DNA from: Acinetobacter guillouiae CIP 63.46
GTDB taxonomy: Bacteria > Pseudomonadota > Gammaproteobacteria > Pseudomonadales > Moraxellaceae
Length of the DNA stretch: 64,000 bases
Direction of reading: 5' to 3'
Assembly (NCBI RefSeq): GCF_000368145.1
Contig: NZ_KB849282.1
Coordinates: 440,129 to 504,128, forward strand
Shown here piece by piece: positions 8,471 through 55,115 of the stretch. The stretch's first letter is position 1. Each line of letters opens with the position of its first letter. The notes below the pieces were generated by a model. It saw only the letters and a program-made list of their open reading frames with translations, ran no database searches and was not told the DNA's origin. The position numbers and the translations under genes were made by a program.

Positions 8471-8498
8471 ATGTGTGTCGTTATTGGGTATATCCCTA

Positions 8499-8710
8499 AC
8501 CTGTTCAGAAACGCATACACTAGAATATAATTTTTCTTCATTCATAATTTTAATTAAATCAATTCTATGGGCAAATAAGTTGTTTAATTTTAAAAACATT
8601 CATTGCACACTTTGCTTTGAAAGTTTAAATCAATTTGCGTAGGCGCTACCTAACTTTTCAGAAATGAACAGAGACGAGTGACAAAATCTCCTGTTGGATC
8701 AGCGAGTATC
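8499..8710 (+). repeat. dispersed structured repeat, copy 1 (truncated)
   Basis: Shares the block AACGCATACAC...AGAATATAAT, then ATTAAATCAATT, TTGCTTTGAAAGTTT, a GTAGGC...CCTAAC hairpin and a CTTTTCAGAAATGAACAG hairpin with copy 3 (54648-54974), in the same order and orientation. The match stops just inside the third hairpin, after GTTGGAT at 8693-8699. The GGCGACAT hairpin and the 3' tail are missing. This copy fills most of the gap between the receptor and the next gene. Confidence 0.8.
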
Positions 8711-20049: not shown

Positions 20050-20206
20050 TTTCAGCAAGATGCCCCATTTACACCGACATCAGTCATCGTCAATGGGGCA
20101 ATGTGTAATGCCGTTTGTAAACTATAATCAAATCGCCTGATTATTCAGACAAGTGATTTTATTTCAATAACCCATATTTAATTAATTTTATGTTTTTTAT
20201 ACAATT

Positions 20207-20515
20207 TGTTAGAAGCTTTTGGTGATTAATTTATTTTGTACTTTTGAATCATAGGTGGTCTTTCTATCGTGAGGCGACATGGATGTCGCCATGTTGAGCG
20301 GGGGTATAGGATGTACCCCTCGCTCAACGAAAGATTTTTGTCATCTTTTCATCTCTGAAAAGTGAGGCATCACCTACGCAAATCTATTTAGACTTTAGAG
20401 GTAAAGCGTGGTAATGAAAGCTTTATATTATTAAGCAATATATTCATCGCATTGATTTTATTGATCAAGAAAAATTATATTTTACTGTATGTGTTTTTAA
20501 CAGATTGACTATTAG
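20207..20515 (-). repeat. dispersed structured repeat, copy 2 (inverted)
   Basis: Reverse-complement counterpart of the repeat at 54648-54974, near full length. It includes GTACTTTTGAATCATAG (20238-20254), the GGCGACAT/ATGTCGCC hairpin (20273-20290), a 36-base hairpin (20293-20328), CTTTTCATCTCTGAAAAG (20345-20362) and the AAAATTATATT...ACT end. Read in the frame that is open in copy 3, this copy contains several stops, so it is not coding. It fills most of the 519-base gap between the dehydrogenase and the MocR gene. Nothing else is seen there beyond a weak GCCCCATT/AATGGGGC pair at 20062-20099. Confidence 0.88.
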
Positions 20516-54647: not shown

Positions 54648-54974
54648 CAAAATATAGTCAACTTGTCAAAAACGCATACACAAGAATATAATTTCTCTTA
54701 ATTGATATCTTTAATTAAATCAATTATATGGGAAAATAAATTGTTTGATTATAAAAAACGTTCATTGCCACATTTTGCTTTGAAAGTTTGAATAAGTTTG
54801 TGTAGGCGATGCCTAACTTTTCAGAGATGAAAAGTAACAAAAATCTTCTGTTGGATGAGAGGTACGTCCTGTACCTCCATCCAACGGCGACATCCATGTC
54901 GCCCCACGATAGGATAACCATCTATGATTCAAAAGTACAAAAAACGAATTGATAACCAATAGTTTCTAAGAGTT
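54648..54974 (+). repeat. dispersed structured repeat, copy 3 (full length)
   Basis: Reference copy of about 327 bases. Order: AACGCATACACAAGAATATAAT block, AT-rich middle, TAGGC-GAT-GCCTA hairpin (54803-54815), CTTTTCA-GAGA-TGAAAAG hairpin (54817-54834), a long hairpin at 54850-54885 with GTTGGATG/CATCCAAC outer and GAGGTAC/GTACCTC inner stems around a bulged A, GGCGACATCCATGTCGCC hairpin (54886-54903), then CTATGATTCAAAAGTAC. It lies in the 569-base gap after the PuuA-like gene. A leftward frame (54724-54921) crosses it but is broken in copy 2. No target-site duplication was recognised. Confidence 0.9.
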
Positions 54975-55081
54975 GATACAAGAACATAAGTTCATTTATG
55001 ATCAATGACTTGATGCAAATCATTTATATGAATAATTAGGTGGTTTGGCTATAGTATGATGATCATAAATTAACAATGATC

Positions 55082-55115
55082 AATAAAAAAATCCCTTTTA
55101 TATAAAAGGGATTTT
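55082..55115 (-). terminator. rho-independent terminator of the 55186-55563 gene
   Basis: A 13-bp stem, AAAATCCCTTTTA (55088-55100) with TAAAAGGGATTTT (55103-55115), runs leftward into a T-run. It is about 70 bases past the stop of the leftward exported-protein gene. Confidence 0.8.

Follow-up and report, generated by a model that had tools for sequence, protein, structure and literature searches.

A dispersed hairpin element of Acinetobacter, of the TwoAYGGAY kind, carried in a MITE-like frame in Acinetobacter guillouiae

This study focused on a dispersed intergenic repeat in a 64,000-nucleotide stretch of the genome of Acinetobacter guillouiae CIP 63.46 (the window; contig NZ_KB849282.1). 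Three copies lie there, among neighbours that include a glutamine-synthetase-like gene, a gene with an Adhesin_E domain, an alcohol-dehydrogenase-like gene and a GntR/aminotransferase regulator. Copies 1 and 2 are flanked by convergent open frames, and copy 3 by tandem frames. The copies and their parts are as follows.

54653..55053, plus strand: copy 1, full MITE-like element with imperfect inverted ends TATAGTC.../...GGCTATA
54663..54692, plus strand: promoter-like TTGTCA-18-TATAAT (11/12) at the left end of copy 1, directed into the element
54814..54837, plus strand: hairpin 1 of copy 1, with core stem CTTTTC-AGAGAT-GAAAAG at 54817-54834
54823..54828, plus strand: loop of hairpin 1 of copy 1, the 5' side of a proposed loop-linker (pseudoknot) helix
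54843..54848, plus strand: linker ATCTTC of copy 1, the 3' side of the proposed loop-linker helix
54850..54885, plus strand: hairpin 2 of copy 1, the 36-base hairpin of the initial annotation, with a bulged A; the minus-strand loop holds AGGAC
54886..54903, plus strand: hairpin 3 of copy 1, GGCGACATCCATGTCGCC; minus-strand loop ATGGAT
20123..20513, minus strand: copy 2, full element, inverted
20293..20328, minus strand: hairpin 2 of copy 2, GTTGAGCG.../...CGCTCAAC
20273..20290, minus strand: hairpin 3 of copy 2
8489..8710, plus strand: copy 3, truncated inside hairpin 2

The initial annotation had described a three-copy repeat with covarying hairpins. All three copies are present and can be aligned along their whole length, but the repeat is longer than was described, has inverted ends, and is one of at least 29 matches at E ≤ 0.001 found in the same genome when 40 of 57 candidates were scored; twelve of these matches span almost the whole element. 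The details of its hairpins held up: in the 36-base hairpin GTTGGATG/CATCCAAC stands against GTTGAGCG/CGCTCAAC, so that three successive pairs are changed on both sides, the inner stem is GAGG/CCTC in one copy and GGGG/CCCC in another, the bulged A is kept, and the hairpins CTTTTC-AGAGAT-GAAAAG and GGCGACAT-CC-ATGTCGCC do not differ between copies 1 and 2. Promoter-like sites of the TTGTCA-18-TATAAT type numbered two in the region of copy 1, compared with 3.7 expected by chance, and all those in copy 1 run along the plus strand. A terminator scan found no T-tailed terminator within copy 1, its sole match (55088-55115) lying outside.

The full element is about 400 bp long. Its imperfect inverted ends (TATAGTCAA...) flank a 120-nt core made up of three hairpins and the loop-linker helix. 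Turned to one strand, the copies extend from TATAGTCAAC..TGTCAAAAAACTCA to ..AATAATTAGGTGGTTTGACTATA; several are longer, with an alternative module (CAAACCTTGCGCTGCAAACAAAGCAGTGCTTTGTTTTTGCTCATG) in place of the linker and the central part of hairpin 1. Terminal inverted repeats, many copies and the lack of an open reading frame of 100 aa or more in copy 1 are features of a MITE, and the flanks are compatible with a TA target, but the ends themselves read TATA. Correia-like bacterial MITEs have TATAG... ends and TA target sites. The element shares with them its TATAGTC inverted ends and the absence of a gene of 100 aa in copy 1, and differs in that no transposase partner was found and a target duplication is only putative.

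The initial annotation had suggested a non-autonomous mobile element, and this fits the window copies, given their inverted ends and the state of one further site. The same genome carries a copy (L011) downstream of aceF, and at that position the core was absent from all 80 orthologous loci compared (best 80 of 156, with 1.5 kb fetched on each side). This may represent an empty site of the kind that had been proposed as a check: in the closest sequence a short spacer occupies the position, with flanks too diverged for a base-exact junction. A contig scan that used the glutamine-synthetase-like neighbour found nothing. The other proposed check, for a transposase with matching ends, failed, as a search for insertion sequences with the same ends produced none that could be tied to TATAGTC. 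Matches to the Y1/RAYT transposase (PF01797) numbered zero in this genome, for which an association with RAYT was rejected, and were present in 9 of 60 Acinetobacter genomes. In plasmid and phage collections the repeat matched 4 and 6 records, respectively, all named Acinetobacter and at least some of them chromosome-sized. Not covered by that suggestion is the conserved unit, which is the core, found across the genus without the MITE ends.

Two variants of the frame were seen in the same genome. L150 (G000:C2, 1972-2017) is a 46-bp derivative that retains only the two TATAGTC ends and has no core. At L149, positions 331-1949 (G000:C4:405900-408200), the middle of the frame is replaced by a DDE_Tnp_1 transposase gene, which has inverted ends of its own, unlike those of the frame.

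With the whole element as query, matches were found in 27 of 58 genomes (own included), all of them Acinetobacter, and in relatives only the middle of the element matched, in most cases about 54797-54912. A covariance model (R1) was built from 34 core sequences and run on Acinetobacter genomes, as the initial annotation had recommended; the core was found in 104 of 119, including A. guillouiae CIP 63.46 itself. Matches ranged from 1 to 30 per genome, and were at least 20 in the source genome, numbers that are lower bounds since no more than 30 candidates were scored for each genome. The left arm of the frame (54660-54765) was detected in 3 of the 119 genomes, in one at half length only. The frame is therefore local and the core nearly genus-wide. 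In one A. baumannii record an unannotated copy lies between rdgB and a convergent permease gene. No description of this Acinetobacter element was found in the literature, as judged from titles and abstract openings.

Some loci hold more than one core. In L052 two adjoining cores (1502-1620 and 1631-1750) lie in opposite orientation, resembling a BIME pair, and L055 and L087 likewise have two cores each in opposite orientation.

Covariation was assessed on an alignment (A4) of 65 model matches, 62 of them distinct, from 61 loci across the genus. These loci were taken from 90 with repeat or core matches (L001-L029 and L034-L094, some representing the same place twice), omitting near-duplicates, fragments and copies that carry the alternative module; because they were chosen from the best-scoring matches, the covariation and site counts lean to well-kept copies. 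A4 was fitted to R1 and leans towards its structure. For alignments A2 and A3, four of 38 sequences (L006, L043, L048 and L059) were dropped as near-duplicates or degenerate, and A3, a MAFFT alignment of the resulting 34, gave the same covariation picture as A4; RNAalifold predicted the three hairpins from it. In A4, 95.7% of cells in the three hairpins and the loop-linker helix were paired, compared with 82.9% in shuffles and 33-46% when the 3' partner was slid. Cells changed on both sides numbered 299, against 76 in shuffles, so that the absence of significant covariation over many copies, one way in which the original proposal could have failed, was not observed. Two-sided changes affected 27 of the 38 pairs. 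The three hairpins are thus shown to be kept by compensating changes, which are real and massive, and the stems are therefore maintained as folded structures.

Support for the loop-linker helix is weaker yet significant, and this is the least secure part of the structure. Taken alone, it was paired in 93.4% of cells and had 22 two-sided cells against 6.7 in shuffles, with variants such as AAAGAT/ATCTTT, AAGGAT/ATCCTT and AAAGGG/CCCTTT. Its count of pairs with two-sided changes was equalled in 100 of 500 shuffles, and a slide of +1 still gave 0.214 compared with 0.243 unslid. As a pseudoknot it could form only if hairpin 1 opened some of its end pairs, and it could instead be an alternative pairing.

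The manner in which the stems change was distinctive. Among variable hairpin-stem pairs there were 7 one-sided and 257 two-sided cells, compared with 92 and 105 in C4 RNA. The core counts exclude the loop-linker helix as well as two ambiguous column pairs, and the cells are related rather than independent. For the C4 control 28 of 33 loci were aligned, of which 23 were from Acinetobacter, and a consensus structure was predicted; G-U occurred in 138 of its 728 cells and A-C in only 4 (hand tally). The core stems had 8 G-T and 20 A-C cells among about 1950 (65 matches, two ambiguous column pairs left out), and in A3, with no column omitted, 8 G-T compared with 41 A-C. The loop-linker helix differed from the stems: in A4 its one-sided cells numbered 25 and its two-sided cells 22, with G-U in 25 cells, and A3 gave 19 G-T against 10 A-C. 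A count of wobbles thus singled out neither strand as the RNA strand, stems and loop-linker helix pointing opposite ways.

Copies were also compared within orthologous sites. L039 and L044 occupy the same site and, hairpin 2 aside, are 99% identical in the core; in the stem of that hairpin 4 of the 13 counted pairs differ, each of them on both sides. All within-site comparisons together gave 218 two-sided and 68 one-sided differences, and those with at least 85% identity in the rest of the core gave 103 and 15, respectively; the one-sided differences mean that stepwise change occurs too. A new observation is that the hairpin stems change almost solely by double Watson-Crick changes, sometimes in whole blocks. 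For an RNA kept by selection, wobble intermediates are expected. Since stem wobble is rare, and some hairpins change as whole blocks, an outcome also expected from template switching in DNA or from exchange between copies, the compensating changes are no proof of selection on RNA. The original claim, that they indicate selection on a folded RNA or DNA structure, stands as far as the folded stems are concerned, but its extension to RNA is unproven.

The 61 copies were assigned by flank similarity to 34 sites, with gene calls that were simple open-frame picks and with the four second cores (in L052, L055, L072 and L087) excluded. Both neighbouring genes were on the plus (TCC-loop) strand at 17 sites and on the minus (GGA) strand at 8; the genes were convergent at 9 and divergent at none, the lack of divergent sites being likewise a new finding. 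The chance of this result is 0.0005 given a background of 20% divergent pairs (about 10 of 50, a hand count of window open frames). All 34 sites lie downstream of at least one gene.

One site, the ruvA-ruvB spacer, was compared between species. Among the best 30 of 59 matching loci, sorted by eye, 14 had a core, with quite different hairpins; 7 had a spacer of 2-45 nt (the source genome included), 8 a different insert, and one a shorter spacer, of 147 nt. The GGA strand is the mRNA strand there, and most cores keep their GGA loops and differ in their stems (again by eye), with GGA lost from one or both loops in L163, L174 and L181. A second repeat family (GATACGCG..GTCATTCGCAACTG..., with hairpin TTACTTTTGCC...CAAAAGTAAGGCG) fills this spacer in species without the core there (L154, L155, L157, L162, L165, L166, L168 and L170); its A/T hairpin resembles that of the core, and some of its copies have a TTTGAGRC end in common with the core.

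On the minus strand, GGA was present in the loop of hairpin 2 in 62 of 65 matches and in that of hairpin 3 in 64 of 65, the former as A-N-GGA in 43 of 65. The two hairpin loops are thus shown to hold GGA while the stems vary. These loops recall the TwoAYGGAY motif (RF01731), which is typed as Cis-reg in Rfam. Beyond Acinetobacter, R1 gave weak matches in 12 of 193 further genomes of the order. From these other genera 11 loci were fetched and 8 scanned; RF01731 exceeded its cut-off in 6, and in 5 of the 8 it lay on the opposite strand over the place matched by R1 (elsewhere in the locus in L095). The two models therefore meet at shared places, the same element being picked up in both groups by one model, with R1 weak outside Acinetobacter.

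Within the genus the RF01731 signal is faint. No match in the window reached the gathering cut-off of 43 bits, nor did any in 25 Acinetobacter genomes, where the best score was 32.4 bits overall and 20.5 in the source genome. Of 30 weak matches in these genomes, sorted by eye, 16 overlap a core on the opposite strand, 2 lie next to one and 12 correspond to no listed place. Chance matches occur at that threshold: two of these 12 are in genomes without an R1 match, and a control genome gave one as well. In a different genus of the order, which looks like Pseudomonas, RF01731 behaves as a repeat, with as many as 60 matches in a genome; it was found at E ≤ 0.001 in 20 of 25 genomes and over the cut-off in 16, and an A/T-rich hairpin accompanies it on the same side as in Acinetobacter. 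In copies of that repeat (L183-L212) the linker after the A/T hairpin covaries with the hairpin's own strand (CAAAGG, CAAGAAGG, CAAAAAG), as if able to replace it in pairing.

The Acinetobacter core and TwoAYGGAY thus have in common two adjacent hairpins with GGA loops (the loop of hairpin 3, ATGGAT on the minus strand, is exactly AYGGAY), multiple copies per genome, in another genus for TwoAYGGAY, and the A/T-rich hairpin on the same side. They differ in that the Acinetobacter copies tested score below the family cut-off, that the loop of hairpin 2 is mostly AGGAC, AGGAT or AGGGAT rather than AYGGAY, and that the core has a single bulged A and the extra loop-linker helix. The element is clearly a dispersed hairpin element, a divergent Acinetobacter branch of the TwoAYGGAY kind, found here in a MITE-like frame.

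Other identities were considered and rejected. Integron attC sites have RYYYAAC...GTTRRRY ends, and in hairpin 2 of copy 1 these motifs stand the other way round (GTTRRRY...RYYYAAC). Weak Rfam matches on the window (FourU, snR63 and others) were judged to be chance, none reaching a gathering cut-off there. C4 antisense RNA (RF01695) was also rejected, its family model matching only elsewhere; some Acinetobacter genomes (G004, G007 and G008) carry at least 20 copies of such RNAs, and the source genome only 4.

The GGA loops and free stems, compared with the CsrA consensus, point to a candidate partner of the CsrA type. The core would have in common with CsrA-sequestering RNAs of the CsrB/RsmZ type its paired GGA-loop stem-loops of free stem sequence; it differs in consisting of scattered two-hairpin modules, predicted from sequence, whereas CsrB and RsmZ are single genes with many hairpins. 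TwoAYGGAY itself was predicted to be a CsrA-binding RNA (PMC4333381), and the list in the paper that introduced it has 'y' under likely RNA and 'n' in the next two columns (PMC2864571). In A. baylyi, a CsrB-like RNA binding CsrA is drawn in an inferred network (PMC12442408).

Our preferred reading, held tentatively, is that this dispersed hairpin element is the Acinetobacter branch of a family that includes TwoAYGGAY and is a candidate paired GGA-loop docking module for a protein of the CsrA/RsmA type, with stems renewed as blocks of DNA. The minus-strand hairpins would be made by read-through from neighbouring genes or from a weak promoter, and would present paired GGA loops as docking sites for such a protein. 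Many scattered copies may then bind or titrate the regulator and mark the transcripts that carry them. Near-exclusive Watson-Crick pairing in the stems would reflect block-wise renewal of the DNA palindromes, through template switching or exchange between copies, with stepwise wobble changes playing the lesser part. Against docking, genes do not preferentially run along the GGA strand (8 sites compared with 17 among the 34), the promoter-like sites of copy 1 point the other way, along the plus strand, the Acinetobacter copies score below the RF01731 cut-off, and stem wobble pairs, which a function in single-stranded RNA could tolerate, are rare on either strand. Upkeep at the level of DNA is suggested by the near-strict Watson-Crick pairing of the stems, by the block changes and by the absence of a strand preference, and it can be compatible with a CsrA-type partner.

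Nearly as likely is a DNA element of the REP/BIME kind without host function, the hairpins of which serve its spreading as single-stranded DNA or cruciforms, or stay perfect by template switching, and for which a location at gene 3' ends is simply the least harmful insertion. Such an element would account for the excess of double changes over that in C4 RNA, for the exchange of hairpin 2 at the L039/L044 site and for the adjoining inverted copies of L052, and multibase compensatory changes are known from template switching (PMC8794818). The absence of divergent sites, with no clear strand preference, also suits it, a tail-repeat-tail bias being known for Pseudomonas repeats (PMC2718517). Like REP/BIME sequences associated with RAYT, the cores are short palindromes in many copies at gene 3' ends, some with inverted neighbours, but the source genome has no Y1/RAYT match and few Acinetobacter genomes have one, the copies number about 1-30 per genome (a lower bound), and it is the loops rather than the stems that are conserved. 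A perfect palindrome would need no GGA/TCC loops, yet these are kept. The presence of the core in 14 of the 30 ruvA-ruvB loci (best 30 of 59), the one-sided changes seen within sites (68 against 218, or 15 against 103 at the higher identity) and the balance of one- and two-sided cells in the loop-linker helix also argue against a selfish element.

Quite unlikely, by comparison, is a two-way RNA element acting at 3' ends, a terminator or exonuclease block that folds in transcripts of either strand. With a gene upstream at every site and 9 convergent sites, such an element would be well placed, and wobble would be forbidden in it, because a G-U pair in one transcript corresponds to A-C in its complement; both are indeed rare in the stems. 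However, copy 1 lacks a T-tailed terminator, and stable hairpins alone require no conserved loops. Very improbable is an ordinary MITE of which the copies diverged at random after one burst: it would be consistent with the inverted ends, the restriction of the left arm to 3 of 119 genomes, the short coreless derivative and the frame with a nested transposase gene, but as a full explanation it is contradicted by a core that covaries strongly and occurs across the genus outside the frame, so that descent from one recent event with random divergence, which the initial annotation had named as a way for its proposal to fail, does not describe the data. A relationship to the Group 1 (C4-like) small RNAs, the largest multicopy group reported in A. 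baumannii AB5075 (PMC5320573), is scarcely credible, as RF01695 matches four other places in the source genome and none at the repeats.

Returning to the docking module, a bolder version, which we regard as doubtful, is that TwoAYGGAY-like repeats may be mobile, strand-symmetric regulatory modules: spreading palindromes with block renewal of stems that would sow putative CsrA-type docking hairpins into many transcripts, forming a distributed sponge that replaces, or acts beside, a single CsrB-like RNA.

The observation that led to this work was right but too small, as the window copies belong to a hairpin-forming DNA family present in most of the Acinetobacter tested. That family is a remote and unannotated branch of an RNA motif already known, with loops that resemble the docking sites of a global regulator. 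An element of most sampled Acinetobacter genomes is thereby set beside an Rfam family of unproven function, offering a direct test of the role of that family. It also illustrates that strong covariation alone does not prove a functional RNA, nearly all of the stem changes being Watson-Crick doubles and some of them whole-hairpin swaps, and the core stems are a good natural system in which to measure the renewal of palindromes. If CsrA does bind, a global regulator would be rewired one copy at a time as these repeats spread.
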